Assembly (NCBI GenBank): GCA_030527885.1
Contig: JAUMZY010000010.1
Location: 1 to 59,403, forward strand
Direction: 5' to 3'
Length of the DNA: 59,403 bases
Source: Corynebacterium sp.
Lineage (GTDB): Bacteria > Actinomycetota > Actinomycetes > Mycobacteriales > Mycobacteriaceae
The position numbers were made by a program, and so were the translations under genes. Shown here piece by piece: positions 3,063 through 55,189 of the stretch (position 1 is its first letter; each line of letters starts with the position of its first letter). Under the pieces are notes generated by a model that saw only the letters and a program-made list of their open reading frames with translations, made no database searches and was not told the DNA's origin.

Positions 3063-5327
3063 TTAATCGTTGGTTATTGCGTGAATGCGATGTAACGGTA
3101 TTCGGATTAACGTACCAGTTTTTTCGTCAATGGTGGATACCATGTTGCTTTCGAGTGAGATGGGCGTAAGCACTCGCAATAGTAATTCATTATGTGAGTC
3201 AACGTATTTTATGGTGAGGGGATGGTTTTCCCGAATGGCCGCCCGAATGAGGGCTGGAAAGGTGCTGCTTTTCGACGTGCTATCGCTGGCGTTGGCGGTG
3301 GGTTCGGTGTGCAGGGCCGCGAGGACGGCACTGATGTGTTCTGGGGTTAGGTCAGTTGGTGGAGTGGGCGTGTTGAGGCGTTCTTCGTATGGTTGGTCAG
3401 GTTTGCGACCTATGCGTGCGGGTTGAGGGCGAATGTCGATGCTGGTGCCGTCGATGTCTTCGGCGATGGCATGGAATCCATATTCTTTGATGAGCTCTAG
3501 GATTTGGCGCAGCGGCGTGGGGGAGATCGCCACCGTTGGAGCGATGAGGTGAAGGCCAGTTTTCTGCGCGATGGGAGAGCGGCTTAGCTGGAGCATGAGC
3601 GCCTCATCGTCGCAACGAAGATAGCTTTGGGCGGCGCCACTGCGCAGCTGGCCGTGGTTCCTGGCGATGTCCTGGATGATGAATTCTACGGTTTGGGGGA
3701 GGTCGCCCTGGAGATGGTTGGTGAAGAAGGCAGTGATGTCTTGGGCACTGCGGCCGGCATCAAAAGCACGACGAATGCTGGCTTCACTGATGCGGTAGGT
3801 GCTGGCCAGGCCAGGGGATTCCACATCTGCCAGCAGCGTTAGATCTTGTTGTATTTCGTACTCCAGGGGGCCAGGGGCTAGGAGGGTCATGTCGCCCTGC
3901 GGAATGAGGTAGGAGATGGGGGCCGGGGTGAGTGGTTGAGTAATCTGCGCGAGGGCGGAGAAAGTTTCGCCGGATGTGAGCGCCTGGAGCAGGGTGGTGG
4001 GGATGAATTGTTCCGGGGCATCAGTTGCGGTGACGAGCAGGCCCAGCCAGTGGGCTTCGGTAATGATTTCGGTGATGGTGGTAGGGGCGATCCGGTGGGC
4101 GATGAGGGGCTGGTGGTAGCCGAGAATCGCGCGGATATTGGTGATGGTGGCGGCACCAGTGAAATAGTCAAGCAGGGTGGAGCGTAGTTGCAGGAGCTCG
4201 GTGCTGATGCTGTCTGGGGATAAAGCTTTGGTGGGTTTCTCTACTTTCCACGGCATGAGAGTGCCGTTGTCCCACCAGCCTTGTACCAGGATGGCCCATT
4301 GTTGGTGAAGTGGCCGGTTGAGGAATTCATCAACGTCATGGGTGGGGGCGAGGATGAGCTCGCCCTGGGTGGTGTCGCGGTCCCAGCGTGTTTCCGTGGC
4401 GACGAGTTCTGTGCCGCGGGCTACGTTGATGGTGCGCAGTGCGTCTTTTTCGCTGAGGTCGAGGGTTTTACTGAGTTTTCGGAGGGCGCGGACTCCGATG
4501 GTGCCATCGGATAATAACTCCAGGGGTGCATCGCCCAGGTGTTCGAGGAGAGTGCGCACGTGCCGCACTACTTCCAGAGCTGTGGCGGTGCTGTGATTAT
4601 CCGCTGCTTGCTGTTGCTTTGGGGTGATGGGGGTTGGTTGCGGGAGTGTGAGCGGTATGAGAGGTGGCTCTTGCCCAGTGAGGGCCCATTTAAGGCGGTC
4701 CGGAAGCTTTACAGTGGTATTGGTGACGCGGTGGAGCAGGCCTTGCGCGATGAGAGTGGGGATTGGTTTGGTTGGGTCGGCATCAGGATCTGCGTCCTTG
4801 GTGGTTCCGATGGGGCCTGACTGGGCGAGAGTATCAAGGATGCGGCGTTGTACGGGGTTGAGGGTTCGCAGGGCGTGGTGAAATTCGTCGTATGTGAGGC
4901 CAGCTTCCGGAAGCGCGGTGATGTTTTTGACGTATTCAAAGAGGTGAGGAGTGAGCTGGAAGCGTTGGGGTGTGCCGTAGGCGAAGGCATAATCGAAGAG
5001 CGTGCGGATTGCTGCCAGGGTGTCTTTTTCCGACAGAAATTCGGCTGCATCTTTGATGATTGTGGGGGTGTCCACAGGTTTGATGTCACCCCCATGACGG
5101 GTGGCCAGGTGCACGACGGCGATGGCTGGTGCGGGTAGGTGAATGGCAGCCCGCAGGATGGAGCCGGGGAGTTCTAAACGTGCAGCTAGAGCAGCAAAAC
5201 CTGGAGGTAAGGGTTTGGTGCTGTCGGGCCGGTTGGTGATGATGGTTGTGAGTTGTGCATCGTCACGGGTGGCTAGCCAATGGCTGAAAGTGGGAAATTC
5301 TGCGGGGGCTTGTGCGGTTTTTGCCAT
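3063..5327 (-). CDS. Helicase-associated protein (Rv0862c-like)
   Basis: The product is 754 residues long, almost the length of the mycobacterial Rv0862c protein that also sits directly upstream of an XPB helicase. It is Thr/Ala/Leu-rich and appears to be built of winged-helix-like repeats with a C-terminal helicase-associated domain. No Walker motifs are visible. The conserved pairing suggests that it loads or regulates the helicase. ATG at 5327 starts the cluster, 64 bp from a divergent small gene, so the promoters overlap. Confidence 0.85.
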   Translation of the reverse strand: MAKTAQAPAEFPTFSHWLATRDDAQLTTIITNRPDSTKPLPPGFAALAARLELPGSILRAAIHLPAPAIAVVHLATRHGGDIKPVDTPTIIKDAAEFLSEKDTLAAIRTLFDYAFAYGTPQRFQLTPHLFEYVKNITALPEAGLTYDEFHHALRTLNPVQRRILDTLAQSGPIGTTKDADPDADPTKPIPTLIAQGLLHRVTNTTVKLPDRLKWALTGQEPPLIPLTLPQPTPITPKQQQAADNHSTATALEVVRHVRTLLEHLGDAPLELLSDGTIGVRALRKLSKTLDLSEKDALRTINVARGTELVATETRWDRDTTQGELILAPTHDVDEFLNRPLHQQWAILVQGWWDNGTLMPWKVEKPTKALSPDSISTELLQLRSTLLDYFTGAATITNIRAILGYHQPLIAHRIAPTTITEIITEAHWLGLLVTATDAPEQFIPTTLLQALTSGETFSALAQITQPLTPAPISYLIPQGDMTLLAPGPLEYEIQQDLTLLADVESPGLASTYRISEASIRRAFDAGRSAQDITAFFTNHLQGDLPQTVEFIIQDIARNHGQLRSGAAQSYLRCDDEALMLQLSRSPIAQKTGLHLIAPTVAISPTPLRQILELIKEYGFHAIAEDIDGTSIDIRPQPARIGRKPDQPYEERLNTPTPPTDLTPEHISAVLAALHTEPTANASDSTSKSSTFPALIRAAIRENHPLTIKYVDSHNELLLRVLTPISLESNMVSTIDEKTGTLIRIPLHRIHAITND

Positions 5328-5391
5328 AACGGTTATTCATTGTACCCACTGCGTATATGACTTTAGGCTTGAGGTTTGGAACAATAGAGGC

Positions 5392-5580
5392 ATGGCAAAC
5401 ATCGAGAAGAACGGTTATGTTGATCCAGGCTGGCCCAAGCACGTCCCTGGTGGCGGCCATTATGTTACAGAAATAATTGCGAAATTCGCGGGTGCTAACA
5501 GCCCGTACGGTGATGTAGAATTCCCCGTCCCAGCTGATGAGCTGGGTTATGTGCATCCGTATACCCGGACCAATAAATAA
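5392..5580 (+). CDS. Conserved small soluble protein
   Basis: A 62-residue protein rich in Gly, Pro and aromatic residues, with a Trp-Pro-Lys-His and several Tyr-Val/His pairs. It has no membrane segment or signal peptide. The frame is open upstream to 5143, but that part overlaps the start of the divergent helicase-associated gene, so ATG 5392 is chosen. GAGG lies very close (1 nt), which may mean a leaderless or near-leaderless mRNA. A small gene divergent from the XPB pair is also seen in mycobacteria, but its function is unknown. Confidence 0.75.
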   Translation: MANIEKNGYVDPGWPKHVPGGGHYVTEIIAKFAGANSPYGDVEFPVPADELGYVHPYTRTNK

Positions 5581-5641
5581 CTGTATACAGCACAAAACCG
5601 GCGCGATGCTTGCTTATCGACGCCGACCTTTGTCACGTTTG

Positions 5642-5806
5642 CTAGTCAGTTGAACGGCCGGAAATGATGTAGGCTGAGCATGCCGCCACCAGCGAGAAGA
5701 ACGTGACTGTCATGATTCCGCTGGTGGACTCCAGACCATCAAAAACCAGGCCGGTTATGCAGAATACAACCATGAAAACCAATAAAGCTTTAAAATAGGG
5801 GCTCAT
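5642..5806 (-). CDS. 54-residue two-helix membrane protein
   Basis: Reading the minus strand from ATG at 5806 gives a 54-residue protein ending in TAG at 5642-5644. It has two clean hydrophobic segments (about residues 5-22 and 32-50) joined by a short acidic loop. Codon use is like that of its neighbours. The upstream AGAAAG element is a weak ribosome site. The two helices and uninterrupted coding character argue for a real gene. It lies between the conserved small gene and the DUF4253 array. I do not recognise the family. Confidence 0.6.
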   Translation of the reverse strand: MSPYFKALLVFMVVFCITGLVFDGLESTSGIMTVTFFSLVAACSAYIISGRSTD

Positions 5807-5904
5807 GTCGGCTACTTTCTGTGGTCAACAGGAATGGTGTTGTTTTGTCGATTCTTCCCTATTTTCTTGACGTTTGCAATGGGGCAGATGGGTGCGTCGA
5901 AAAG

Positions 5905-6720
5905 CTAATCCCACCAGAAAAGCCACATCTTGTTTTGTAATGTGTTGCCGTATTCGGGAAAAGTCTCACTGGACTGGTCAATATTGTCGGGGCAGAAAAT
6001 GTAGTGCTCCAAGGTGAGATTAATGAGCTGATTGTCAGTGAGGGGGCGGAACTCCCACGGCCAGAGCAACACTTGGTCGGAATCCAACCGGATGAGAATT
6101 GCCCCAAATCGTTCCTCCCAGCTGCGCAACACGGTCGAAATGGTGGCGCCAGTGTAGCCGAAATTAATGGCACCCATCCAACCTACCGCAGCAGGCGCAT
6201 CGGCAGGCCGTGTCGTGGGGACGATGAGCAAACTACCTTTGAAATTGCCGTCATCATCGACCATATCAAGCACTTCACTGTTGAAGCTGTTTGCCGTGAG
6301 CGCATTGAAGGTGTGGAAGTCGGCGAAGCTTTCCAACCGTTCATCTGTGAGCTCGGGGAACGTGGGGTTATTCCAGCCCTGTTCAATGATGTTTTCAAAC
6401 CAGGGGAGGGTGTTGTAGGCATAAAACCTGCTGGCGGTGCCGATGTCTTGCACGCAGGGCGCATCCAATTCCCGATCGAAGCCTTTGCTGTAGAGTGGCC
6501 AGAATCCCAATTCGGGGAATGTGGCGAGCAGATGCCCCCACAGTTCAGTGAGCTTCGGTTGGTTGTGTAACTGCACCCCCACTTCTTGGGGCTCATCGGT
6601 GAAAGTTGTGAGCACCTCATACTTGTAGCCCCAGTCGGTGAGTAGCTGCTTGAGCTCATCCAAGCTGTGGGGATTAGGGCAGTAGGGTTTGATTTGCTTA
6701 GGCCATGGTTGGAAATCCAT
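5905..6720 (-). CDS. DUF4253 protein, paralogue 1
   Basis: A 271-residue protein without signal peptide or membrane segment. The C-terminal half carries the features I associate with DUF4253: a RPADAPAAVGW block, the core RSWEERFGA, and EHYIFCPDNIDQ, ending in LFWWD. The N-terminus (PWPKQIKPYCPNP) is nearly identical to that of paralogue 2, at DNA level over about 60 bp, so the duplication is recent. It is last in a four-gene tandem array, 18 bp after its neighbour. No strong ribosome site is present. The stop codon overlaps a copy of the CGTCGAAAAGC motif. Molecular function is unknown for the family. Confidence 0.85.
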   Translation of the reverse strand: MDFQPWPKQIKPYCPNPHSLDELKQLLTDWGYKYEVLTTFTDEPQEVGVQLHNQPKLTELWGHLLATFPELGFWPLYSKGFDRELDAPCVQDIGTASRFYAYNTLPWFENIIEQGWNNPTFPELTDERLESFADFHTFNALTANSFNSEVLDMVDDDGNFKGSLLIVPTTRPADAPAAVGWMGAINFGYTGATISTVLRSWEERFGAILIRLDSDQVLLWPWEFRPLTDNQLINLTLEHYIFCPDNIDQSSETFPEYGNTLQNKMWLFWWD

Positions 6721-6738
6721 GCTTATTAATACTAGTGA

Positions 6739-8225: not shown

Positions 8226-9115
8226 TCGTTTTGGTTGAGGCACTCATCGTTGGTATAGAGCAAGAAATCATCAAGGCCATCAATGGTGTCGCGGCAGAAG
8301 AAGTAATGTTCCAGGGCGAGCAAGTTGCGTTGTTGGTTTGTCAGCTGCAGGGTTGGTACCGCTAAGGTCATAATTTGGTTCTCTAACTGGATGAGTACCG
8401 CCCCAAACCGGTCTTCCCAACTGCGTAGCACTGATGAGAGGTGGAAACCGGCGAAGTCGTAGTTGCAGGCGCCTAACCAGCCTACGGCGGCGGGCACATC
8501 GGTGGGGCGGTTTACTGGGGTGATGAGCAGCGCTACGGGGTCGTCGAGACCAAGGGAGGCGGGTATCGGGTCTAAGTTAGGTTCAGGGATTTCCAGGTAA
8601 TCAGTGGTGCGGTGCTTTTCGGTGAGGGAAGCAAAAAAGGCGGCTTTGAGTTCATCACTGTTGTCGGGGAAGTTGCGGCCAGACCAGAATTGTTCTTCCT
8701 CCCAATCCGCGTCGCTGAGTTGTTCTGGGTCGATGCCTTTGGGGCGCTCAAAAAAATCTGCACCAGCATGGGAATAGAAAGGGTGCAGATCGGTGAAGAT
8801 GAGGTCGGTGCTGGGTTCTACCAGGTCGCCTGTGACCCACGGGTAGTAGCCTTGGTTGTGGGTTTGTTGGTGGGTGAGTACTGGCCAGAATCCGCGGGTG
8901 GGGAATTCGTCGACAAGCTGGGCGTATACGGCACGCAGGTCGGGTTTGTGCGGTAGGTGGGCGAGTACTGCTACTGCGGTGGGGTTGGGGGCGTCGTGCG
9001 TGACGACGAGTTCGTGCGGGATGCCCAAACTTTGCAGGAGGGCGGTGAGTTCAGTTATTGGTTGGGGCGTGGGGCAGTGGGGGATGATTCTTCTGGGCCA
9101 CGGTTCGGGGAACAT
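8204..9115 (-). CDS. DUF4253 protein, paralogue 4
   Basis: First and longest gene of the array, about 303 residues, with an extra acidic, aromatic middle segment (about 100-165). It has PTDVPAAVGW, RSWEDRFGA, EHYFFCRDTIDG and the FWWD end. The frame opens 14 codons earlier at 9157, but that start would lie inside the rpf1 terminator, and the family N-terminus aligns with ATG 9115, so 9115 is chosen. It has no clear ribosome site. Its transcript may begin immediately after, or read through, the rpf1 terminator. Confidence 0.85.
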   Translation of the reverse strand: MFPEPWPRRIIPHCPTPQPITELTALLQSLGIPHELVVTHDAPNPTAVAVLAHLPHKPDLRAVYAQLVDEFPTRGFWPVLTHQQTHNQGYYPWVTGDLVEPSTDLIFTDLHPFYSHAGADFFERPKGIDPEQLSDADWEEEQFWSGRNFPDNSDELKAAFFASLTEKHRTTDYLEIPEPNLDPIPASLGLDDPVALLITPVNRPTDVPAAVGWLGACNYDFAGFHLSSVLRSWEDRFGAVLIQLENQIMTLAVPTLQLTNQQRNLLALEHYFFCRDTIDGLDDFLLYTNDECLNQNEWYFWWD

Positions 9116-10376: not shown

Positions 10377-10769
10377 ATGCCTATTGGTAAAGTTAAATGG
10401 TATGATCCGGAGCGCGGTTTCGGTTTTATCTCCAATCCCGGCGATGAAGACTGCTTCGTTAGCAAATCAGTACTGCCCGACGGCGTCACCGAACTCCACC
10501 GCGGACAGCGCGTCGACTTCGATTTCGCCTCCGGCACCAAAGGCCCCCAAGCATTACGCATCAAGCTTGTCGACGAACCCCGCGCCCGCACCCGACGCAT
10601 CGAACATAAATACACTCCCGAGGAACTCGGCTCCCTCATCGCCGACATGGTGACCACCCTAGAAGAACGAGTACAACCCCCACTCACCGCCGGCCGGTAC
10701 CCCGACCGCAAAGAAGGCAAAAAGATCGCCGAAGCCCTACGCATCATCGCCCGCGAACTAGACGCCTAA
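10377..10769 (+). CDS. cspB: Cold-shock domain protein CspB
   Basis: A 130-residue protein with an N-terminal cold-shock domain of about 65 residues. The RNA-binding motif 1 is GFGFI, while motif 2 is changed to DCFVSKS in place of the usual DIFVH. A helical C-terminal extension of about 60 residues follows, as in actinobacterial CspB. Proteins of this type bind single-stranded nucleic acid and act as RNA chaperones. ATG 10377 has a strong AGGAAGGG site. A convergent terminator follows. The altered motif 2 may weaken RNA binding. Confidence 0.9.
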   Translation: MPIGKVKWYDPERGFGFISNPGDEDCFVSKSVLPDGVTELHRGQRVDFDFASGTKGPQALRIKLVDEPRARTRRIEHKYTPEELGSLIADMVTTLEERVQPPLTAGRYPDRKEGKKIAEALRIIARELDA

Positions 10770-12263: not shown

Positions 12264-12985
12264 ATGGACACCGTGCCACACGACGATGAAAGAAGAACAG
12301 TCCACCCCAAGAAACCGCACAAACTACTGCTCAGCAACCTAGCAGTCAATATTGCTCGTGCCGCCACCTAGGCGCAACCGACGTCGCCAACAACGCCGTC
12401 ATCCACCAATTCGTCGCCCACGTCCCCGGCTACACCGGCTGGGAATGGAACGTAGTCCTAGCCTGCGCCGCCAGCTCCCGCTGGATCACCGTCTCCGAAC
12501 TCGTACTCCTCCCTGGCCGCGCAGCTCTCCAAGCACCCGAATGGGTTCCCTACCAAAACCGCATCCAACCCGGCGACCTCGGCCCCGGCGACCACATGCC
12601 CACCCCCATCAACGACACCCGACTCACCACCACCAAAGAAAACGCCGCAGCCATCAACCTACCGCTACCCACGACGTCGAAAAGCAACCGCATGCTCTCC
12701 ACCGACGGCCTCAACCAAGCCCTACACCGCTGGCAAACCGGCGAATACGGACCCCAATCACCCCACGCCCGACAATCCAAACTCAAATGCGCCAGCTGCG
12801 CCTTCTACCTACCGCTACCAGCTGCCGGCGTCGGCGTGTGCGCCAACGAATACTCCGCCGACGGCTCCGTCGTCGCTACCAAATACGGCTGCGGCGCCCA
12901 CTCCCAAACCCCACAACCACAACCCAAAGGCAAACCCACCCGCAAACCCTTCTACGACGACAAACCCATACCCGTCGACATCTAA
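12264..12985 (+). pseudogene. DUF3027 protein gene with a frame disruption
   Basis: From ATG 12264 the frame codes the expected N-terminus (LLLSNLAVNIARAA) but ends at TAG 12369-12371. The remainder is intact in another frame from about 12362, with no start codon: HLGATDVANN, HVPGYTGWEWN, GDLGPGDHM, and the end VCANEYSADGSVVATKYGCG with Cys residues typical of DUF3027. Restoring one base near 12355-12365 (for example CC to CCC) rejoins the two parts. Family proteins usually have about ten more residues at this junction, so a small deletion may also be present. It is either a real inactivation or a sequence error. A copy of CGTCGAAAAGC lies at 12675. Confidence 0.75.
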
Positions 12986-14701: not shown

Positions 14702-14788
14702 CGCTTTTCGACGCTCCCACGTGCGTTGCGGGGAAGTGCTGTGCTGCAACTTCAACGTTGTGGCACACATCGCCTACCCTTAAACACC

Positions 14789-18890: not shown

Positions 18891-20761
<1,871 letters not shown>

Positions 20762-28238: not shown

Positions 28239-28338
28239 CCTGGAACGTCGACAAGCAAAAAGCGACAATAACGGCTAAGCCCACACCACCCACTTTAAGT
28301 GCACTAAATCTGCTAAATATCTAGTGAGCTGGGGTAAC

Positions 28339-30360: not shown

Positions 30361-30397
30361 GCTTTTCGACGAGGTGGTGTTGGGATCGTCGAAAAGC
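30361..30397. repeat. Inverted pair of the 11-mer motif
   Basis: GCTTTTCGACG at 30361-30371 and CGTCGAAAAGC at 30387-30397 form a perfect 11-bp inverted repeat with a 15-nt loop. It lies between the antiporter stop and the DUF1906 start. It could fold into a hairpin, but no T run follows on either strand. Confidence 0.85.
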
Positions 30398-34859: not shown

Positions 34860-35594
34860 ATGCGGCGCATAATGGTCATTGGCATTGGGGCTGGTAGTCC
34901 AGACCATCTCACCCTTGGGGCAATCAAAGCCCTCCAACAGGCCGATGTGGTGATTGCCATTGATAAAGGCGAGGAAAAGCACGACCTGTTGGGGCTGCGT
35001 AAAGAAATCCTCGCCGCGCATAATTCCACCGTGCCGCTGCGCACTGTCCTGGATCCGCCCCGCAACCGCAAGCCCGACGACTATTACGCTGAAGTGCAAC
35101 GCTGGCATCAAGCTCGCGCTGAAGCCGTAGAACAAGCCATCGTTGATGCCACGGATGCAGACGGTACCGCAGCTATTTTAGTGTGGGGCGATCCCGCCCT
35201 GTACGACTCCACATTGCGCATTTTAGAACGCTTTTCGACGCCTATAGCCATCACCGTTATCCCCGGCATCACCGCCATTCAAGCTCTGACTGCAGCACAC
35301 CATATTGTTCTGAACCGGATCGGGGAAGAAATCGTCATCACCACCGGTCGCAAACTCATGGATGGGGCGCGACACCGAAACTGCATCGTGATGCTTGATG
35401 GTGGCACCGCCTGGCTCACTGCCTCCACTCCTCACACATACATGTGGTGGGGCGCCTACTTGGGAACAGATAAAGAAATAATCCGCAGCGGCCCCGCCCA
35501 AGAAATCGGATCCGAAGTGGCCAAATTAAAAACCCACCTGCGTCAACAACACGGGTGGATCATGGACATTTACATGCTGCGGGAATTAGATTAA
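34860..35594 (+). CDS. cobF: Precorrin-6A synthase (deacetylating), CobF
   Basis: 244 residues of the tetrapyrrole methylase fold. The start VIGIGAGSPDHLTLGAI is the glycine-rich S-adenosylmethionine motif, and LVWGDPALYDSTLRI and VIPGITAIQALTAAH are typical of CobF. In the aerobic B12 pathway CobF methylates C-1 of precorrin-5 and releases acetate. No other cobalamin gene is in the window, so it is an orphan here. GAAGAGG precedes the ATG. The end overlaps the convergent mycoredoxin gene by 4 bp. Confidence 0.9.
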   Translation: MRRIMVIGIGAGSPDHLTLGAIKALQQADVVIAIDKGEEKHDLLGLRKEILAAHNSTVPLRTVLDPPRNRKPDDYYAEVQRWHQARAEAVEQAIVDATDADGTAAILVWGDPALYDSTLRILERFSTPIAITVIPGITAIQALTAAHHIVLNRIGEEIVITTGRKLMDGARHRNCIVMLDGGTAWLTASTPHTYMWWGAYLGTDKEIIRSGPAQEIGSEVAKLKTHLRQQHGWIMDIYMLRELD

Positions 35595-35887: not shown

Positions 35888-36367
<480 letters not shown>

Positions 36368-41000: not shown

Positions 41001-42865
41001 ACGTGCGGCGGGTGTCTGAAAGCCGGCGGGCGCGCACCGTGGAAGAACTGGTGGATGCGCTGCGGATCCTGGGGCCCATCCCGGTCGCTGCCCTACCAGA
41101 GCACACGCTTTTCGACGCCACAGGCGTCAGCCTCCCGGGCCGCATCATGCGAGTGCGGATCGCCGGAGTAGAGCACCTGGCGCAGGTACCAGATGCACCA
41201 TTGCTGCGGGATGGCCTGGGCATTCCCGTGCCGCCAGGAGTATCCGCACCCGTGGCGGTGGTGCCGGACGCATTGGAACAGCTGCTGAGCCGGTGGGTGC
41301 GCACCCATGGGCCATTCGTGTTGGATGATGTGACCGCAGCCTTTGGCCTGGCAGCAGGCGTGGCGCACACGGTGCTGTCGGTATTGCAGGACGCCGGCCT
41401 GGTGGTTGTAGGCCACTACCGGAAGGGCATTGATGAGGTGGAATACATTTCCGTCGAAGTGCTGCGGTTGATGCGCTCCCGGTCATTGGCGGCGGCGCGG
41501 GCGCAAACCCGCCCAGTGAGCCACAGCGCTTACGCCCGGTTCCTGCTGGACTGGCACCAGATCGCGCCGGTGGGGGAGAAGCCCCAGCTGCGAGGCGAAG
41601 ACGGCGTGTTTGCAGTGTGCGAGCAGCTCGCGGGTGTGCGGTTGCCGGCCAGCGCGTGGGAAAGCGTGATTCTGCCCAGCCGGGTGCGTGATTACAATCC
41701 CGTGGATCTGCAAACACTCTGCCACAACGGGGAAATTCACATCGTGGGGGCCGGCCTGGCTGGGAGCAGCGACCCATGGGTGATGTTGCTGCCGCGCGAT
41801 TATGCTGCTGATCTAATGCCGCAGCCGGTGGCGGAACCAACGTTAAGCCTGGTGGCCAGTGAGATTCTGGCGGAACTAGGGGACGGTGGCTTCTTCTTCG
41901 ACCAAGTGCGCGCCGGGCGGGATTTCGAAACGACGCGGGCTGCCCTGTGGGAACTATTTGAGGTGGGGCTGGTCAGCCCCGATAGTTTCGCCCCGCTGGC
42001 GGCCCGGCTGACTCGGGGAAACACTGCGCACCGGTCGAAGCGGACACCAACCAGATCTCGGTTGCGCATGGGGCGCACAGTGGTGAACCGCATTCCACCG
42101 GATATGGTGGGACGATGGTCGCGCACAGTAGCCGCGACGGTGGATCCCACGCCCCGATCCGTGGCGCACGGGGAAGCCTGGTTGGACCGGTACGGGGTGG
42201 TCACTCGTGGCGCAGTGCAATCAGAAAACGTCCTGGGCGGGTTCGCCTTGGCGTACAAAGTGCTGAGCGGGTTTGAGGAATCCGGAAAGGCATTGCGCGG
42301 GCATTTCATCACAGATTTGGGGGCGGCACAGTTCTCCACCTCTGCGGTGATTGATCGGCTGCGTAGCTTCGCGGATTCAGAGGATGTTGCGGGGTGGCCC
42401 TCCGGCACCACTGATCCGAACGTGTGTGTGCTTGCGGCGTGTGACCCGGCCAATCCCTACGGGGCGAGTTTGCCGTGGCCCGGCCGGTCGGTTAGCCGTT
42501 CCGCCGGGGCACTCGTTGTGCTTATCGATGGCCTACCGATGGCGCACCTGAGCCGGGGCGGGAAGAACCTCACGCTGTTTGACCCACCGGCGGACGTGCC
42601 GCAGGACACCGTGATTGGCCTGGTGGTGCAGGCATTGATGAGTGCTGTGGAGCAGAATGTTATGACCCGGGTGAGCGTCGAAAAGCTCAATGGCGAACCC
42701 GTGCTGACCAGCGAGTATCGGGAACAATTTCGGGCAGCGGGGGCGAGCATGACGCCGAGCGGGCTGCGAATTGCCGCGCCGAGTGGGGCGACGCCGCCGG
42801 CGGGTGGGCGGACGTTGAGCGAGGCTGTGGCGCAGTTGGGGAGGCAACGTCGTGCCCGAAGGTGA
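38024..42865 (+). CDS. lhr: Lhr-type ATP-dependent DNA helicase
   Basis: About 1613 residues. Walker A APTGSGKT is at 53-60, DEIH near 221, and IGLSATVRP follows. ATSSLELGIDMG and QRVGRAGH lie in the second RecA domain. The Lhr-specific winged-helix domains and the long C-terminal domain make up residues from about 850 on. Lhr is a 3'-5' translocase acting in DNA repair. A low-complexity Lys/Ala/Gly insert (about 75-128, with KAGAKVGMKAGAKAGVK) lies between motifs I and Ia, and a Gly-rich loop follows near 345. ATG 38024 is chosen over TTG 38012. The end overlaps nei by 14 bp. Confidence 0.94.
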   Translation: MPPNPTPDADATILDKFSPQVATWFRDVFATPTLVQSAAWSAISAGENALVVAPTGSGKTLAAFLWALNTFVNSPGQTSLPVVNPTAKNSVDKTATGQEQPTNRNNTQKPRTKAGAKVGMKAGAKAGVKVLYISPLKALGVDVELNLRAPLLGINRTAQRLGLSETDISVGVRSGDTPAAERTALTRQPPDILITTPESAYLMLTSKASEILKDVDTVIIDEIHAIAGTKRGVHLALTLERLEHLVGHPVQRIGLSATVRPLKTVAQFLGGSHPVTIVNPAAAKNWDLNVIVPVPDMSDLPAPELGSTIGEITIDDPLGLSSPLIDEAGLDEPGFNGSGGAGAGGAANNSIWPHIEQHLYNVIMDHQSTLVFVNSRRTAEKLTAKLNELHALRHAPESVGKRGPRPPADVMKPVDEIATAPHLIARAHHGSVSKEERTQTETMLKEGALKAVVATSSLELGIDMGAVDLVVQVESPPSVASGLQRVGRAGHVVGATSKGLFYPKHRAELLQTAVTVDRMRRGMIEEIHVPSNALDVLLQHTIAAVAVTDWDIEHWFATVTRAYPYKNLDRTVFDAVIDLASGIYPSTDFAELRPRITYDRITGTLSARPGAQRIAVTSGGTIADRGMFGVFLLGGEQGARRVGELDEEMVYESRVGDVFTLGASSWRIEEITRDQVLVSPAPGLTGRLPFWLGDQVGRPAELGKALGAFRRAVAADPAIAQQIDRLDEYACDNLVRFVRDQQDVTGIVPDEKTLLVERFRDEVGDWRVVLHSPYGWGVNAAWALAVGAKISAETGIDAQPVSNDDGIVLRLPESDVVPGAGLFQLDPDDVMDVVAEQVGNSALFAARFRECAARGLLLPRKNPGKRAPLWQQRQRAAQLLDVARKYPSFPIILETVRECLQDVYDLPSLVQLCKDIKETRVRIAEVETTQPSPFASSILFTYTGAFVYEGDSPLAEKRAAALALDPQLLAKLLGSVELRDLLDPDIIAEVDANVRRVSESRRARTVEELVDALRILGPIPVAALPEHTLFDATGVSLPGRIMRVRIAGVEHLAQVPDAPLLRDGLGIPVPPGVSAPVAVVPDALEQLLSRWVRTHGPFVLDDVTAAFGLAAGVAHTVLSVLQDAGLVVVGHYRKGIDEVEYISVEVLRLMRSRSLAAARAQTRPVSHSAYARFLLDWHQIAPVGEKPQLRGEDGVFAVCEQLAGVRLPASAWESVILPSRVRDYNPVDLQTLCHNGEIHIVGAGLAGSSDPWVMLLPRDYAADLMPQPVAEPTLSLVASEILAELGDGGFFFDQVRAGRDFETTRAALWELFEVGLVSPDSFAPLAARLTRGNTAHRSKRTPTRSRLRMGRTVVNRIPPDMVGRWSRTVAATVDPTPRSVAHGEAWLDRYGVVTRGAVQSENVLGGFALAYKVLSGFEESGKALRGHFITDLGAAQFSTSAVIDRLRSFADSEDVAGWPSGTTDPNVCVLAACDPANPYGASLPWPGRSVSRSAGALVVLIDGLPMAHLSRGGKNLTLFDPPADVPQDTVIGLVVQALMSAVEQNVMTRVSVEKLNGEPVLTSEYREQFRAAGASMTPSGLRIAAPSGATPPAGGRTLSEAVAQLGRQRRARR

Positions 42866-45378: not shown

Positions 45379-47019
45379 TTAGCCCCGATGTGCCCGATAC
45401 CAAGAAATAAGCGTATCAGTAGAGCTGTCGCCGGAATTGACGGTAACTTCCCCCGATACGGCCGGCGCCAAATCATTAGCCTGCTGCTTACCTAACTCCA
45501 CCCCCCATTGGTCAAATGAATTAATCCCCCAAATTACACCTTGCACAAACGTAATATGCTCATACAACGCGATTAACGCACCCAAAACTGCCGGCGTCAG
45601 CTCCTCCGCCAAAATCGTGGTCGACGGCCGATTACCCGGCATCACCTTATGCGGCACCAACTCCGGTGCCACGCCCTCGGCGGCAATCTCCTCGGCGGTC
45701 TTGCCGAACGCCAACACCTTGGTCTGCGCGAAGAAGTTACTCATGAGCAGGTCATGCATGCTGCCGGTGCCATCCGCAGTGGGTAAATCCTGCTTCGGCC
45801 GAATAAACCCAATGAAGTCCGCCGGAATGACCTTCGTCCCCTGGTGCATCAACTGGAAAAACGCATGCTGACCATTGGTGCCTGGTTCACCCCAGTAAAT
45901 CTCCCCGGTGTTCAACGTCACGGCGGTGCCATCCCGGCGCACAGACTTACCATTGGACTCCATGGTCAACTGCTGCAGGTAGGCCGGGAAGCGGCCCAGA
46001 TCCTCCGAGTAGGGCAGCACCGCATGGGTTTGGGCACCAAAGAAATCATTGTACAGCACACCCAACAGACCCATGTTCACCGGCACATTCTGCTCCAGCG
46101 GGGTGCTGCGGAAATGCTCATCCATGGCGTGGAAGCCAGCGAGGAAATTCATGAAGTCCTGCGGGCCAATCACCGCCATGAGCGACAGGCCGATGGCGGA
46201 ATCCACCGAATAGCGGCCCCCGACCCAATCCCAGAACCCAAACATGTTATTGGTATCAATACCAAATTCGGAGACCTTTTCCGCATTGGTGGACACCGCC
46301 ACGAAATGCTTGGCCACGGCATCTTCAGAACCCAGCTTCTCCACGAGCCACCGCTTGGCTGCATGCGCATTGGCCAAGGTCTCCTGGGTGGTAAACGTCT
46401 TTGACGCCACCACAAACAACGTGGATTCGGGGTCGCACTCATCCAGAACTGAAATGATATCCGCCGGATCCACATTGGATACGAACTTTGCTTTGATGCC
46501 GGCGGTGGCATAAGCCCGCAGCGCCCGTACCGCCATGGCTGGCCCCAAGTCGGAACCACCAATGCCAATGTTCACCACGGTTTTAATGGTGTGATTGGTG
46601 TATCCCAACCACGTTCCCGACCGCAATGCCGTGGCGAAATCCCGCATGCGGCTCAACACCTCATGTACGTCAGCTGCCACATCCTGGCCATCAACAACCA
46701 AATCATTATCAACCGGCAGGCGCAGGGCGGTGTGCAGCACAGAGCGGTTCTCCGTGTTGTTGATCTTGTCGCCCCGGAACATGGCTTCGATATGGTCCTC
46801 CAGCTTTGCGGCCCGAGCCAGGTTGAACAGAGCTTTGCGGGTGGTGCAATCCATATAATTCTTCGACAAGTCAACATACAGGCCGGCTGCGCTGAAGTTG
46901 AGCTTCTTGCCCCGCTCCGGGTTGGCGTCGAAAAGCTGGCGTAATGTTTTCTGCGCCAAGCCTTTCTGGGCTGCTGCTACTTCCGCCCAGGCTTCGGTGG
47001 TGGTGATGTCATCAGTCAT
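45379..47019 (-). CDS. pgi: Glucose-6-phosphate isomerase
   Basis: 546 residues. The two family signatures are present, [17 protein letters not shown] and [14 protein letters not shown]. It interconverts glucose-6-phosphate and fructose-6-phosphate. The frame is open to 47094, but GGAG 9 nt before ATG 47019 and family length support the shorter form. It is followed by its own terminator. The 11-mer CGTCGAAAAGC lies in its 5' region, coding Leu-Phe-Asp-Ala. Confidence 0.97.
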
Positions 47020-47124: not shown

Positions 47125-47946
47125 TCAACCTTGGTAAAAATCATAAAGTTTGTGCGACCCAACCGATTCCCCCACGGAATCATGCATCATGTTCCACGCC
47201 GCAAACCCCAGCGTCGACCAGCGTGCCTGCGCCAGCAACATTCCAACCACCCGCGGCAGCACCGTAATTTTCGCCGGCTTATGCACCGCCCGGAATGCGC
47301 ATTCTGCCAGCTCCCACCACGTAAAAACATCCGGGCCGCCCACATCCCACTCCCCAGCAGTCTGCTTTTCGACGCACACCCGAGCCAAATCCGCCCCATG
47401 AATCGGATGAACCCGCTTATGCGGGTCCAACAGAAACACTCGACCCCGCCGCGCCATGGCGAGAATCTGCATCATGTCTGAAAAATACCCAGACGGATTA
47501 ATCACCTGACTAACCACATCTGCAGCCTGCAACTCCCGCACAAAAGCAGCTTTAGCCTGCGTCAACCGTGCCGGGCACTCCGCCCCACCCAAAACATTCA
47601 CATAACAAAACGAGGTGACCTGATGGTGCAGCGCCGACTGCAACAGTGCGAGGTTTGCCCGGTAATCAACATCCCACGGATTCGCCTTCTGTCGCGTCAC
47701 CCCCAACGCCGAAATCACCCGGCTTGCCCCTTCAACAACATCCGCTGCAAAAACCGGATCTGTTACATTGCCCACTGCCCATTCATTAACCATCCCAACT
47801 AATGCTGGAGAACCCCACGGACCAGGCAATTCCGCACGTTCCTGATCGCGAACAATCGCTCGCACTTCGTGCCCCTGACGATGTAACTCCGCAACAATGA
47901 ACCGGCCGAGATACCCCGTTGCGCCCGCCACCACAACCGTGCTCAT
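47125..47946 (-). CDS. NAD(P)H-binding reductase-like protein
   Basis: 273 residues, atypical SDR/NmrA type, with VVVAGATGYLGRFIVAEL at the N-terminus and a VNVLGGAE segment. The active-site Tyr/Lys pair of classical SDRs is not obvious. Its ATG overlaps the stop of the upstream TetR gene (ATGA), so both are one operon and this protein is probably the regulated function. The substrate is unknown. Confidence 0.85.
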   Translation of the reverse strand: MSTVVVAGATGYLGRFIVAELHRQGHEVRAIVRDQERAELPGPWGSPALVGMVNEWAVGNVTDPVFAADVVEGASRVISALGVTRQKANPWDVDYRANLALLQSALHHQVTSFCYVNVLGGAECPARLTQAKAAFVRELQAADVVSQVINPSGYFSDMMQILAMARRGRVFLLDPHKRVHPIHGADLARVCVEKQTAGEWDVGGPDVFTWWELAECAFRAVHKPAKITVLPRVVGMLLAQARWSTLGFAAWNMMHDSVGESVGSHKLYDFYQG

Positions 47947-48649: not shown

Positions 48650-48858
48650 TTTGCTGAGCTGGGGTTCCGCCTGGCAAACCGCGAAACCATGCCCCCAGAT
48701 CTAGAAACCCAGCTAATCAAACCTGCTGAATCATTTATGGCATGCTTGCTAGCTTTTCGACGCCCCAGGTTTGCGGTTATCAGAAGTGCTGAGCTGGGTT
48801 TCTGGATTGTGGAGTGCTGTAGCTGGGGCATGGAGGGTAGAAACCTAGCTTAGGAAAA
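48650..48858. repeat. Cluster of degenerate intergenic repeats
   Basis: Five related copies of GAAACCCAGCTCAGCAAA lie in 210 bp: reversed at 48650-48668, forward at 48704-48721, reversed at 48786-48802, a short reversed one at 48819-48829, and forward at 48840-48858. A copy of GCTTTTCGACG sits among them at 48752. The 418-bp stretch from 48573 to 48990 holds no gene that I can support. Confidence 0.65.
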
Positions 48859-48990: not shown

Positions 48991-50460
48991 ATGGATGTAG
49001 TGGAATTACTAGCTAAAACTCCCACGGGTTTATTCATCAGCGGTGAATTCGTGCCGGGCGAAGGCGGCGAAACCCTAACCGTGACCAACCCATCCGACGG
49101 TACAGTGCTCGCCGAAGTCGCCTCAGCCAGCGCAGACGATGTACAACGAGCCCTTGATGCCGCTGAACGCGCTGGGAAATCCTGGGCAGCCACCCCAGCC
49201 CGGGAACGCGCCGAAATCCTTCGCCGAGCCTTCGAACTCATCATCGAACATGGCGAAGAATTAGCCTGGCTGCAATCCCTCGAACTTGGCCGCGCACTTC
49301 CCGACAGCCGTGGTGAAGTCGCCTATGGGGCAGAATTTTTCCGGTGGTTCGCGGAAGAAGCCGTGCGTATCCGGGGCGACTACCGACACAGCCCAGCTGG
49401 TAACGCCCGCATCGTGGTTACGCACCAGCCGGTAGGCCCCTGCCTGGCCATCACCCCATGGAATTTCCCGCTGGCAATGGGCACCCGGAAGCTGGGTCCG
49501 GCCCTGGCGGCGGGGTGCACGATGATCGTGAAGCCGGCATCCAAGACGCCGCTCACCATGTTGTATCTGGCTAAACTCCTGAAGGAAGCCGGCGTGCCCG
49601 ACGGAGTGGTAGCGGTTCTGCCTTCGAAAAAGGCTTCGAACATTTCCGCGCTGCTGGATGACCCCCGACTGCAAAAACTCACCTTCACTGGTTCCACTGA
49701 AGTAGGGCAGAAGCTTGCAGCCCAGGCGGCCCAGCGATCTCTGCGGGTCAGCCTGGAACTGGGTGGAAACGCCCCGTACATCGTGCTGAAAGACGCCGAC
49801 CTGGAACAGGCCGCCCAGGCTGTGGCGGTGGCCAAGATGCGGGGTGCCGGGCAGGTGTGCATCGCGGCAAACCGGTTCCTGGTGCATGCCGATGTGGCAG
49901 AAGAATTTATCGAAAAGGTGTCCGAAGTGATGGCTAGTTTCCATCTGGGGCAGGCCACTGCGGAGGGCGTGACCTTTGGGGCGCTTTCTGGCGATGATCA
50001 GGTGGATACAGTGCGATCTTTGGTGGATGATGCTGTTGCGGCGGGGGCGACTGTGGCGCTGGGTGGGGACGTCGATAAGCTGCCTGCTGATTTGCCGCAG
50101 GGCGGGAGCTACTATCCTGCTACCGTGCTGGGGAATGTGCCGGCCAGCGCCGCCATTGCTAATTCCGAAATCTTCGGGCCGGTGGTCGCCGTGCAAACCT
50201 TCCGGGAGGAAGCCGAAGCCATCGCCATTGCCAACAACACCCCATTTGGCCTTGCAGCATACGTTTTTGCTGGCGATACTGGGCGGGCGCTGGCCGTTGC
50301 TGAACAGATTGAGGCCGGCATGGTTGCAGTCAACAAAGGCGCACTGTCCGACCCCGCCGCGCCCTTCGGTGGTGTGAAAGAATCCGGATTGGGGCGTGAG
50401 GGAGGATTCGAAGGTATTTATGAATACCTAGAACCGAAATTCATCTCCCTGCCACTCTAA
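48991..50460 (+). CDS. gabD: NAD(P)-dependent succinate-semialdehyde dehydrogenase-like
   Basis: 489 residues, aldehyde dehydrogenase superfamily. The general-base Glu is in LELGGNAPY and the catalytic Cys in GAGQVCIAANRF. ITPWNFPLAMGTRKLGPALA and the end APFGGVKESGLGREGG are typical of GabD. It oxidises succinate semialdehyde to succinate, though other aldehydes cannot be excluded. GAGAGGA precedes ATG 48991; an in-frame ATG at 48931 has no site. It ends 3 bp before a convergent gene. Confidence 0.88.
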   Translation: MDVVELLAKTPTGLFISGEFVPGEGGETLTVTNPSDGTVLAEVASASADDVQRALDAAERAGKSWAATPARERAEILRRAFELIIEHGEELAWLQSLELGRALPDSRGEVAYGAEFFRWFAEEAVRIRGDYRHSPAGNARIVVTHQPVGPCLAITPWNFPLAMGTRKLGPALAAGCTMIVKPASKTPLTMLYLAKLLKEAGVPDGVVAVLPSKKASNISALLDDPRLQKLTFTGSTEVGQKLAAQAAQRSLRVSLELGGNAPYIVLKDADLEQAAQAVAVAKMRGAGQVCIAANRFLVHADVAEEFIEKVSEVMASFHLGQATAEGVTFGALSGDDQVDTVRSLVDDAVAAGATVALGGDVDKLPADLPQGGSYYPATVLGNVPASAAIANSEIFGPVVAVQTFREEAEAIAIANNTPFGLAAYVFAGDTGRALAVAEQIEAGMVAVNKGALSDPAAPFGGVKESGLGREGGFEGIYEYLEPKFISLPL

Positions 50461-51634: not shown

Positions 51635-54196
51635 ATGAATGCTGCGAATAACTCTCCCTTCCACCGAAACCAAACTGACCAACCCGATCTTTTTGCTGGT
51701 GTGACCGGGTTTGAGTCCTATTCTGCAACCCCACCGGATGAGCCTTTGCCACCACCACCGGAGGAACCACTCGCAGAGGACATGGTCCCGCCAGAGGAAG
51801 AATTCTATGTTCCGGTGTCCCCTGCGTCGGCGGCAGGAATCCTACAAACATCACCATTTCATGCGCAGAACATGGAAACATCAACAAGCGACCTGCTTGA
51901 GCGGCTTAACCCGCAACAACGGGAAGCAGTGGAACACATCGGGTCACCACTACTCATTGTTGCAGGCGCCGGGTCCGGGAAAACTGCGGTGCTGACACGT
52001 CGCATTGCGTACCTCATGCAGGCGCGAGGCGTATCACCTGGGCAAATTCTGGCGATCACATTCACCAATAAAGCCGCCGTCGAAATGCGCGAACGTGTGA
52101 TTAACCTGGTGGGGCCGGTGGCTAGTCGCATGTGGGTGTCCACTTTTCACTCCACCTGCGTGCGTCTCCTGCGAGAACAAGCAAATCTCATACCTGGGTT
52201 GAATACGAATTTCACCATCTACGATTCTGATGATTCCAAGCGGTTACTCACCATGATCGCCAAGGACTTAGAGGTTAATCTACAGAAATTCCCAGCTAGA
52301 CTTCTCGCCAGCGCCATTTCCGCACTAAAAAACGAACTCATTGATCCCGAGGCTGCGCTCGATGAAGCTGATGCCACCCGCAACCCATTCAACCGCACCA
52401 TTGCGCAGGTCTACATTGAATATCAGCGCCGCTTGCGGGAATCCAATGCTGTCGATTTTGATGATCTTATTGGCGAAACTGTCCGTATTTTCCGAACCCA
52501 CCCCGAAATCACTGCTTATTATCGCAAACGTTTTCGGCATGTGCTTATCGACGAATACCAGGACACCAACCACGCTCAATACGCCCTCATCTCCACCCTG
52601 GTTGGTGACCAGGACGACGCCAGCGAACTCTGCGTGGTTGGTGACTCCGACCAATCCATTTACGCCTTCCGGGGTGCCACCATCCGCAACATTGAGGAAT
52701 TCGAACGCGACTACCCCCAAGCCCGCACCATCCTCCTCGAACAGAACTACCGTTCGACTCAAACCATTCTTTCCGCAGCTAACGCCGTCATCTCCCACAA
52801 CGATAATCGGCGGGACAAGAAGCTCTGGACCGACCAAGGCGCCGGCAGCAAAATCATTGGCTACGTCGCCGATAATGAACACGACGAAGCCCGATTCGTC
52901 GCCAATGAAATTGATGACCTCACCGATCAGGGCCACAACTATGGCGACATCGCCATCATGTACCGCACCAACAATTCCTCCCGCGCCATCGAAGAAGTCT
53001 TCATTCGAACAGGCATTCCCTATAAGGTGGTGGGTGGCACCCGATTCTACGAACGCAAAGAAATCCGCGACATCCTCGCCTACCTGCGGGTTCTCAACAA
53101 CCCCAACGACGAAGTATCCCTCCGCCGCATCATCAACACGCCACGCCGGGGCATTGGCGAGCGCGCCGTAGCCAGCGTCAACCTCTACGCCGAAAACTTC
53201 GGCATCAGCTTCGCCGAAGCCCTCGATGATGCCGCCACTGGTAAAGTCACCGCCCTCGGCACCCGCGCACGCAAAGCCATCGCCGGCTTCACCGAACTCA
53301 TGGCCAACCTCCGAACCGAAGCCGCCGAAGCTATCAACGATATCACCGGCCTCCCCGACATCGGTGTGGTGGTCTCCCGCATCCTCGACGCCACTGGCTA
53401 CAAAGCCGAACTCGAAGCCAGCAACGACCCCCAAGATGGTGCCCGCCTCGACAACCTCAACGAACTTGTGTCCGTCGCCCGGGAATTCAGCTCCGAAGTG
53501 GCCAACCAACTCGCATATGAAGACCTGGAGGAGGTAGCAGAAGGCGAAGCCGCGCAGGGTTCCATCCAGGCCTTCCTGGAAAAAGTCTCCCTCGTAGCCG
53601 ACGCTGACCAACTGCCAGACACCGAAAACAGCGTGGTCACCCTTATGACCCTGCACACCGCGAAAGGCCTGGAATTCCCCGTGGTGTTCTTAATCGGCTG
53701 GGAAGACGGCCAATTCCCGCACCTGCGGGCACTCGGAAACCCCCAAGAACTCGCCGAAGAACGCCGGCTCGCCTACGTGGGCATCACCCGGGCCCGCCGG
53801 AATTTGTACCTTACTCGCGCCATGTTGCGCTCCTCCTGGGGGAGCGCCGTCACCAACCCGGCTTCCCGGTTCCTCGACGATATTCCCAGCGAACTTATGC
53901 AATGGCGGCGGGAAGAACCCGATTATTCCTCCAGCGGCTGGGGCAGCGATGATGCCTTTGTGGCCGGATACCCCAGCATGCCTAAGCGCCCCACGCGCAA
54001 ACCCACCCGGCCGTCAGTATCAGCGTCCAACCTGCATCTGGTGGTGGGGGACCGGGTTAATCACGAAAAATATGGGCTCGGCACGGTGCAAAACGTGGAT
54101 GGATCCGGGCCGCATGCCTCCGTGACCATTGACTTTGGTTCCGCAGGGACGGTGCGGCTCATGCTGATTGGTGGGGTGCCGATGGAGAAGCTTTAG
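51635..54196 (+). CDS. pcrA: UvrD/PcrA-type DNA helicase
   Basis: 853 residues, superfamily 1A. Walker A AGAGSGKT, DEYQDTNHAQ, VGDSDQSIYAFRGA, QNYRST, TLHTAKGLEFPVVF and RLAYVGITRAR are all in order. An acidic Pro/Glu-rich N-terminal extension of about 85 residues precedes the helicase core. The C-terminus holds the Tudor-like RNA-polymerase-binding fold (GDRVNHEKYGLGTV). It unwinds DNA in repair and replication restart. GGAAGGA precedes the ATG. The 3' end overlaps the convergent permease remnant by 38 bp. Confidence 0.96.
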   Translation: MNAANNSPFHRNQTDQPDLFAGVTGFESYSATPPDEPLPPPPEEPLAEDMVPPEEEFYVPVSPASAAGILQTSPFHAQNMETSTSDLLERLNPQQREAVEHIGSPLLIVAGAGSGKTAVLTRRIAYLMQARGVSPGQILAITFTNKAAVEMRERVINLVGPVASRMWVSTFHSTCVRLLREQANLIPGLNTNFTIYDSDDSKRLLTMIAKDLEVNLQKFPARLLASAISALKNELIDPEAALDEADATRNPFNRTIAQVYIEYQRRLRESNAVDFDDLIGETVRIFRTHPEITAYYRKRFRHVLIDEYQDTNHAQYALISTLVGDQDDASELCVVGDSDQSIYAFRGATIRNIEEFERDYPQARTILLEQNYRSTQTILSAANAVISHNDNRRDKKLWTDQGAGSKIIGYVADNEHDEARFVANEIDDLTDQGHNYGDIAIMYRTNNSSRAIEEVFIRTGIPYKVVGGTRFYERKEIRDILAYLRVLNNPNDEVSLRRIINTPRRGIGERAVASVNLYAENFGISFAEALDDAATGKVTALGTRARKAIAGFTELMANLRTEAAEAINDITGLPDIGVVVSRILDATGYKAELEASNDPQDGARLDNLNELVSVAREFSSEVANQLAYEDLEEVAEGEAAQGSIQAFLEKVSLVADADQLPDTENSVVTLMTLHTAKGLEFPVVFLIGWEDGQFPHLRALGNPQELAEERRLAYVGITRARRNLYLTRAMLRSSWGSAVTNPASRFLDDIPSELMQWRREEPDYSSSGWGSDDAFVAGYPSMPKRPTRKPTRPSVSASNLHLVVGDRVNHEKYGLGTVQNVDGSGPHASVTIDFGSAGTVRLMLIGGVPMEKL

Positions 54197-55094
54197 CGGT
54201 TACGGTTGGGGTTTTACAGGGTTTGATCATGAAACGCTCCATGGCTGCGGCAACCAGCGGCATCACAAGCAGCGGCACCACAATGCACAAGATCAGGATG
54301 AGCGGCCAGTTGATTTGGCCGGCGATGAAACCAAGCAGGTCATTGGTCTTTGGGCTGGCAGTGAAACTACGGCCTGCAAGTTTTCTATAAGCAGCAATGA
54401 TGGACACATAATGCCCGAACACCACCGCAGTGGTGGTGCTCAGAAACGTAATGATGCCGCCGTACCAAACATGGGCTCGTCGTATCACAACGCTGGGGAT
54501 TCCTTTTGCTGCTAATTGTTGGCTCCACGCTGCAAGCTTTGGAATTACCAACCAGAACGAAAAAGCCAGGACCACCAAGACTCCACCCGCTGCCACCTCG
54601 ACAAAGTCAGCGAGAACGCGGTCATATACGATGTCGTTCAGGAATGCATCACCGAAGAAGGCAAACAGGAAACTTTGGGCGTACAGCGTGGCGAAGATGA
54701 AAACGAGGGTTGCTAAAATGATCGACCCTGATATTGTCGCATGCTGGCGAATTAATTCACCCGCCAGTTTCGCCGATGGAGGCTGGGTGATTAGGCGGGT
54801 GCTGTGTATTAAGAAGGGAACGCTCAGGGATAAGCCGATTATTCCCACCAGCGTCACGCCAAGGCTAAGGAGAACCGTTAGGAAATGAGGATAAGTACTC
54901 ACCGGCAGTAGTGCGGGGCAGATCAGTAACAAGATTGGCCCCACCTACCACATTTTTTGCCCTGTAAGGGGGGTTTCATCTCCGTGGCGGGTAACAAAGA
55001 GGGGGCTGAAGATGGCCAGTAGTATGAACGTTGCCGCGATTATCAGGGATAACAATATAAGCATAAAGCCAATGATAGGCAGCAGGGTTGCCCA
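54159..55094 (-). pseudogene. Remnant of a second FtsX-like ABC permease
   Basis: The minus frame is open from just after a TAA at 55095-55097 and contains a membrane segment (IIGFMLILLSLIIAATFILL), then TAG at 54945-54947, and then about 260 residues with further membrane segments. The parts align with the C-terminal half of permease 1: KLAGELIRQHATISGSIILA against RLAGRLVRREALKSGAIIAA, and INWPLILILCIVVPLL against VNWPSVLYLCLLVPAV. The N-terminal FtsX domain and the large extracellular domain are missing. I read it as a truncated, inactivated paralogue. Confidence 0.75.
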
Positions 55095-55189
55095 TTACTG
55101 GTGTGGATAGCACCCAAAACGCCTTACCTTACGACCTTACGGGGGACCCGCACGGTAAGGCGTCGAAAAGCTAGCGAAAAGCTAGGGCG

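Follow-up and report, generated by a model that had tools for sequence, protein, structure and literature searches.

DNA uptake words are known from two Gram-negative families, the Pasteurellaceae and the Neisseriaceae (PMC7811141, available part). The DNA uptake sequence (DUS) of the Neisseriaceae exists as dialects that run along the species tree, with ComP as receptor (PMC3630211, accessible portion). Among actinobacteria, Micrococcus luteus is naturally competent and has comEA, comEC and Flp/Tad pili and no comG cluster, according to the accessible part of PMC6370729. The subject here is an 11-mer, GCTTTTCGACG, that recurs along a 59,403-base stretch of Corynebacterium sp. DNA (the window; contig JAUMZY010000010.1) and throughout the assembly that contains it (GCA_030527885.1, designated G000: 25 contigs, 1.64 Mb, 53% complete). 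Copies were compared across a set of 242 Corynebacterium genomes, G000 included. On balance, and with modest confidence, the word is probably the local dialect of a DNA-uptake-sequence-like system of the genus, serving natural transformation.

The window holds 15 exact copies of GCTTTTCGACG, 8 on the plus and 7 on the minus strand, as counted in the first-pass annotation; dinucleotide shuffling predicts 0.02, and the maximum over 100 shuffles was 1. The word is also of genome-wide type, as had been proposed, and not clustered in the window only: the 1.64-Mb assembly contains 167 plus-strand and 160 minus-strand copies (327), compared with 12 and 6 (18) for the control, the same word read backwards. 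For finer counts, a 459-kb sample of G000 (the window and 20 further stretches) was used. An order-4 Markov model predicts 0.76 copies in this sample and 86 are present, about 110-fold more and far from chance. Only base 5 is free in the single-mismatch spectrum: T, A and G at this base give 86, 45 and 42 copies (0.4–0.8 expected each), C gives 6, and single changes elsewhere in the word give 0–6 copies each. The A and G forms were therefore counted as full members of the word, and the D1 dialect is written in full as GCTT[T/A/G]TCGACG. Base 5 behaves similarly in a second species, G026 (T 84, A 24, G 37), which in addition somewhat tolerates A at base 6 (11 copies). Counting the base-5 variants GCTTATCGACG and GCTTGTCGACG brings the window to 25 sites; site density is about 0.4 per kb. 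All ten A and G copies lie where the first pass had placed them; it had suggested coding as a partial explanation, but with numbers so far above expectation they are not mainly a coding effect.

Across the 242 genomes, exact GCTTTTCGACG ranges from 0 to 696 copies per genome, about equally divided between strands in motif-rich genomes (G226, 360/336; G026, 341/335; G116, 256/227). In 24 genomes of the same order outside the genus, 0–24 copies were found, with no enrichment: the genome with 24 copies has 21 of the reversed control, and the next highest have 7 versus 1 and 6 versus 3. Other dialects were discovered by k-mer counts in 60–100 kb per species. The D2 dialect, GCTTGCCGATGCC, has 393 copies in G146, 203 in G006, up to 232 in others and 0 in G000, and the eight genomes richest in D2 have only 0–8 copies of D1. 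The D3 dialect, CGACGCCACCAG, has 111 and 123 copies in G010 and G015, the next highest count among the 242 genomes being 13. CGA[CT]GCC is common to all three dialect words. No dialect word emerged from k-mer counts in G030 (100 kb) or in G166, G074 and G133 (60 kb each); G183 gave a weak hint of D3, with 8 D3 copies genome-wide. A maximum-likelihood tree of PcrA was built from 50 species and a Rhodococcus; the species were a non-random selection, 30 nearest to the window PcrA and 20 chosen by motif counts, and the D3 species lie outside it. Species were classed as D2-type if they had 18 or more D2 copies and D2 > D1; all 14 of these fall into a single 100/100 clade within a D1 background, joined there by G014, a species poor in all three words (2 D1, 0 D2 copies). 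Within this clade, the tree does not resolve the place of G083, which has both words (35 D1, 92 D2). Judged from these PcrA sequences, the dialects follow phylogeny, as described for the Neisseriaceae.

The relative orientation of neighboring sites follows a rule. All site pairs were counted, with the three base-5 variants taken together, against an expectation of uniform placement, and the D1 species G000, G026, G116, G156 and G226 were pooled. In bins ending at 0.3, 0.6, 1.2, 1.8, 2.4, 3 and 4 kb, the observed/expected ratio for same-orientation pairs was 0.15, 0.43, 0.33, 0.71, 0.77, 0.94 and 1.00. In the three bins below 1.2 kb, inward pairs (+-) gave 1.68, 1.18 and 1.41 and outward pairs (-+) gave 0.73, 0.81 and 0.71; beyond 1.2 kb both ratios scatter between 0.6 and 1.4. 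Same-orientation sites repel one another over about 2 kb, and opposite sites do not. Inward pairs outnumber outward pairs by 77 to 40 below 1.2 kb (nominal p 0.0008) and by 54 to 30 beyond 300 bp (p 0.012). As controls, 500 motif-free 7-mers of similar copy number were drawn per species. The same-orientation ratio was 0.19 in G000, 0.43 in G026 and 0.29 in G116, and in each species none of the 500 controls was as low, with control means above 1. In the D2 species G146, 0 same-orientation pairs were found versus 5.6 expected (4 of 500 controls as low). Sites were too few to judge the rule singly in G156, G226, G010 and G015. Strict alternation of orientation was tried and rejected, exact-copy neighbors in G000 being opposite in 34 cases and the same in 32.

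The rule indicates that whatever reads the word does so with direction and with a reach of 1–2 kb. A directional site would make a second, nearby site in the same orientation redundant, and an opposite site not. To judge from the excess of inward over outward pairs, the site would serve the flank on its 5' side; the order same << -+ < +- fits a reach in that direction.

Direction reading is also the property of Chi sites, and because a direction-reading enzyme gives the same geometry, a Chi-like site is the main rival, though an unlikely one. An end-resecting helicase-nuclease other than RecBCD, perhaps AdnAB, the actinobacterial type of such enzymes, would read the word from one side and switch to recombination. 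It would need no more than a single site on each strand within a few kb, producing within-strand repulsion, and inward pairs would flank a break favorably. Such an enzyme accounts for the orientation-specific repulsion and the 77 versus 40 asymmetry no less well than directional uptake does. In E. coli, Chi is read by RecC, which was found in 0 of 41 genus genomes in a search with a positive E. coli control that did not extend to AddAB and AdnAB, and a RecC-type Chi was rejected accordingly. Known Chi sites are shorter than this word and less variable than its dialects. Some species have 0–10 copies, four of them with no other dialect in 60–100 kb, an odd pattern if the word served recombination as a housekeeping function.

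A consistent strand bias along the chromosome, which a Chi-like site would lead one to look for, was not seen. The strands are balanced in G116 (62/57 in 400 contiguous kb) and G026 (72/73 over 20 spaced stretches), with one 80-kb block of G026 skewed (18 + / 7 -). A replichore-oriented site of the type of FtsK-orienting polar sequences (KOPS) was rejected on the same per-stretch counts, which were made with origin and terminus unmapped. The earlier argument that the word shows no strand bias and hence is neither Chi nor KOPS thus held for the bias itself but not for the whole of its conclusion, as the neighbor orientation rule also fits a direction-dependent recombination site.

Sites were placed relative to genes with a home-made codon-usage caller, so that the intergenic fractions are approximate. 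The 25 sites of the window are as follows.

3267..3277 (+), GCTTTTCGACG, within the helicase-domain gene 3063-5327 (-)
5612..5622 (+), GCTTATCGACG, between genes
5895..5905 (-), GCTTTTCGACG, at the edge of gene 5905-6720 (-)
8908..8918 (-), GCTTGTCGACG, within gene 8204-9115 (-)
10565..10575 (+), GCTTGTCGACG, within gene 10377-10769; same position conserved in G026
12675..12685 (-), GCTTTTCGACG, within the DUF3027 gene 12596-12985 (+); the site in G156 is displaced by 6 bp
14703..14713 (+), GCTTTTCGACG, between genes
20096..20106 (+), GCTTATCGACG, within gene 18891-20141 (-)
23057..23067 (-), GCTTGTCGACG, within the carboxyltransferase gene 22665-24167 (-); conserved in G156 and G026
25870..25880 (+), GCTTTTCGACG, in the enoyl-CoA hydratase gene 25196-25960; conserved in G156; forms an inverted pair with the site at 25924
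25924..25934 (-), GCTTTTCGACG, the other arm of the 25870 pair
28246..28256 (-), GCTTGTCGACG, between genes
30361..30371 (+), GCTTTTCGACG, between genes; first arm of an inverted pair with a 12-bp stem
30387..30397 (-), GCTTTTCGACG, the other arm of the 30361 pair
35230..35240 (+), GCTTTTCGACG, within gene 34860-35594
36034..36044 (-), GCTTATCGACG, in the dihydrofolate reductase gene 35888-36364 (-); conserved in G156, G026 and G226
38992..39002 (+), GCTTATCGACG, in the large ATP-dependent helicase gene 38024-42865
41107..41117 (+), GCTTTTCGACG, in the helicase gene 38024-42865; same place is GCTTGTCGACG in G156 and GCTTTTCGACG in G226
42676..42686 (-), GCTTTTCGACG, in the helicase gene 38024-42865
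46926..46936 (-), GCTTTTCGACG, within gene 45379-47019 (-); conserved in G156
47364..47374 (+), GCTTTTCGACG, in the NAD-binding gene 47125-47946 (-)
48752..48762 (+), GCTTTTCGACG, between genes
50070..50080 (-), GCTTATCGACG, in the aldehyde dehydrogenase gene 48991-50460 (+)
52543..52553 (+), GCTTATCGACG, within the pcrA gene
55161..55171 (-), GCTTTTCGACG, between genes; G026 and G226 have an opposite-orientation site 15 bp off

The best named relatives of the PcrA encoded in the window are from Corynebacterium (C. hylobatis, 72%), and one transporter of the window matches the model of MctC, a Corynebacterium-linked transporter. Elsewhere in the genus set, a contig of G233 is identical to a named Corynebacterium record, and G018 has 200 bp in common with C. 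hylobatis.

In the 459-kb sample, copies of GCTTTTCGACG use all six coding frames, with two preferred (xxG CTT NTC GAC Gxx and its antisense counterpart), and 29 of 86 exact copies are intergenic versus 14.4% non-coding DNA. The use of several frames and the excess between genes had both been noted at first pass, as had the insufficiency of codon bias alone, with which the roughly 100-fold excess over the Markov model agrees. For placement analysis only, repeat clusters on contig C9 were masked, which removed 13 of 173 G000 sites. With the three variants together, 43 of the remaining 160 sites are intergenic in G000 (13.2% of bases) and 32 of 145 in G026 (13% expected), an enrichment of nearly twofold; 110 of 160 and 111 of 145 lie inside genes. 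Intervals between divergent genes are depleted in G000 (3 sites versus 11.5 expected) and not clearly so in G026 (7 versus 8.6). Within genes of these two species no bias towards gene ends such as that of the Pasteurellaceae was seen (Kolmogorov-Smirnov p 0.10–0.76), a bias that is not a feature of all uptake words.

Neighbors less than 120 bp apart form 8 pairs in G000 and 10 in G026, of opposite orientation in 7 of 8 and 9 of 10, respectively. The inverted pair pointed out earlier at 30361/30397 was confirmed, its arms having the extents 30361-30371 (+) and 30387-30397 (-). Inverted pairs fold as hairpins, this one at -22 kcal/mol (z -3.0), with no obvious U run beside it. Such hairpins, together with the 13 of 173 G000 sites that lie in intergenic-repeat clusters on contig C9, are what would be expected if part of the copies were transcription terminators or derived from dispersed repeats. 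Most sites lie in genes, pairs within 120 bp are as few as stated, and the window has none of these repeats; this origin is refuted as a general explanation and survives for single pairs, being very improbable as an account of part of the copies. The C9 repeat itself (L139-L142) is intergenic and clustered, contains GGGAGCTTA and often forms inverted pairs about 54 bp apart; 38 of its 39 matches in 459 kb are on C9, and some units hold a D1 site. A separate clustered palindrome was seen around ATGCACGTGCAT in G257 (L216 18266-19041, L217 17521-17668), mostly at a spacing of 123–147 bp.

Comparison of orthologous places, proposed with the first annotation, showed conservation of coding sites above that of random 11-mers in G156, G026 and G226. 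In G156, within a syntenic block, 5 of 16 mappable coding sites have a site at the exact orthologous place, four of them identical and one changed at base 5 only, and a sixth is displaced by 6 bp; the corresponding counts are 3 of 13 in G026 and 2 of 7 in G226. By comparison, randomly chosen aligned 11-mers from coding DNA are identical in 4.8% (G156), 2.1% (G026) and 2.8% (G226) of cases. Site 41107 varies at base 5, where G000 and G226 have T and G156 has G, the other ten bases being conserved. For non-coding sites, a site within 300 bp was found in 0 of 8 cases in G156, 1 of 10 in G026 and 1 of 4 in G226, the last two in opposite orientation. Sites are thus maintained above chance yet can be replaced, which sets them apart from regulatory sites tied to particular genes.

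Two small replicons were sampled in G026, and the 20 kb read from each (40 kb together) had 0 sites, versus 2–12 sites (mean 7.1) in each of 23 chromosomal stretches of 20 kb. One replicon is conjugative-plasmid-like, with a TrwC relaxase and coupling proteins; the other has phage tape-measure and capsid genes. One protein of the phage-like replicon combines a VG15 phage domain with a CdiA C-terminal domain (L268 18992-19984).

Spread over the chromosome, absence from these replicons and partial conservation across speciation would equally suit a binding site for a chromosome-organizing or nucleoid protein, needed at spaced intervals. This alternative is improbable, and slightly more so than the Chi-like one: an architectural role needs no spacing rule confined to one orientation, the word is nearly absent from some species, and no candidate binder is at hand. 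Sites of the matS/parS type are confined to a chromosome domain, and such confinement was not seen in the 23 stretches of G026. Codon usage, to which the two preferred frames might point, or a mutational hot word can practically be dismissed. The hundredfold excess, the six frames and the copies between genes count against both, as do the rarity of single-mismatch neighbors and the replacement of one dialect by another within a clade. The hot word, an alternative of the first pass, is further contradicted by the empty replicons of the same cell and by the conserved orthologous places.

Genes for natural transformation are present. In G000 the ComEC gene is adjoined by an SLBB-HhH ComEA-like gene; ComEC was found in 41 of 41 genus genomes and DprA in 20 of 20. 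The Tad ATPase was above the cut-off in 232 of 242 genomes, and the Tad gene cluster was conserved in 10 of 10 loci read; the ATPase alone was identified by search, and the names of the remaining genes of the cluster are presumptive. In G001 (47 word copies) the ComEC match is split across two overlapping stretches (G001:C4:524862-525658), and G029 has a second DprA-like gene on contig C2 (43485-44057), outside its main contig C1. The search for com genes suggested at first pass was thus positive for ComEC, ComEA-like and DprA genes, but they are equally present in motif-poor species, and for this reason competence genes amount to permission, not proof.

In the uptake reading, the word on free DNA would be bound at the cell surface by a receptor that may belong to the Tad (type IVc) pilus or to the ComEA step, and DNA of the own kind would then enter via ComEC and recombine (DprA/RecA). 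Sites would accumulate by molecular drive, since incoming DNA carries them, and the dialect would track the receptor. To accommodate the orientation rule, the site would act with direction, setting the strand or flank that enters over a tract of 1–2 kb. Molecular drive through biased uptake explains such a word without requiring each site to have a function. In being tight, strand-balanced and about hundredfold enriched, in tolerating many places, in forming dialects and in its absence from the mobile DNA sampled, the word resembles uptake words. A more specific version is proposed only tentatively: that this may be the first such system outside the proteobacteria, using a Tad-type pilus to work across a mycolic-acid outer membrane, and that, unlike the known ones, it may be directional, the word setting the strand or flank entering over 1–2 kb and hence repelling only sites of the same orientation.

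Several points weigh against the uptake reading. Uptake by H. influenzae is reported, in the part of PMC1939737 available, to be independent of site orientation, so that a classical uptake sequence would not have been expected to obey an orientation-specific rule. Repulsion was not seen in G006, a D2 species, when a looser form of the word was counted (19 pairs versus 21.8 expected); with a stricter form, 4 same-orientation pairs were found versus 6.4 expected under 1.2 kb, too few pairs to decide. Intergenic sites are not conserved between species (none of 8 in G156). Competence and Tad genes do not predict the word, and no receptor candidate emerged, as the Tad cluster does not differ between 6 species with the words and 4 that nearly lack all three. 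A Tad ATPase above the cut-off is missing from G000, although this genome is only 53% complete. No report of natural transformation in Corynebacterium was found in the open-access literature. Titles and the beginnings of abstracts of open-access papers, subscription papers not being covered, likewise gave no sign of an uptake word described for Corynebacterium or any other Gram-positive genus; spaced motifs described in three Corynebacterium genomes are CRISPR (clustered regularly interspaced short palindromic repeats) repeats (PMC5217627, accessible portion).

If the uptake reading is true, the word is a third, independent case with dialects, and tagging of self-DNA evolves repeatedly. It would also speak for natural transformation in Corynebacterium, whose members include harmless production strains as well as human commensals, and the receptor could be sought by following the dialect switch. 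The orientation rule would be genomic evidence on the polarity of DNA entry or recombination, of which no earlier report was met.

Among known systems, Chi sites share a direction-reading geometry that would yield an equal spacing rule; Corynebacterium differs in the lack of RecC (in 41 genomes) and of a consistent strand bias, in the length of the word and in the few copies of some species. M. luteus is alike in its competence genes and pili, and the accessible part of the paper cited above mentions no uptake word, M. luteus DNA not having been searched for one. The first-pass comparison with Haemophilus and Neisseria uptake sequences was upheld for occurrence on both strands, density, tightness, intergenic excess, some inverted pairs, dialects and absence from two small replicons, but not for gene-end bias. 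The uptake signal sequence (USS) of the Pasteurellaceae shares the lack of orientation bias along the chromosome, a reported even spacing and opposite pairs at gene ends (PMC1939737 and PMC7811141, as far as accessible); word and phylum differ, uptake of the USS is reported to be indifferent to site orientation, and the gene-end bias of the USS (PMC2346458, available part) was not seen here. Compared with the DUS of the Neisseriaceae, the Corynebacterium word belongs to another phylum, is unrelated in sequence, is less dense and stands beside Tad-type pilus genes; orientation-specific repulsion was counted in Corynebacterium only. With the DUS it shares a short and tight word, placement in both coding and intergenic DNA, inverted pairs and dialects along the species tree.

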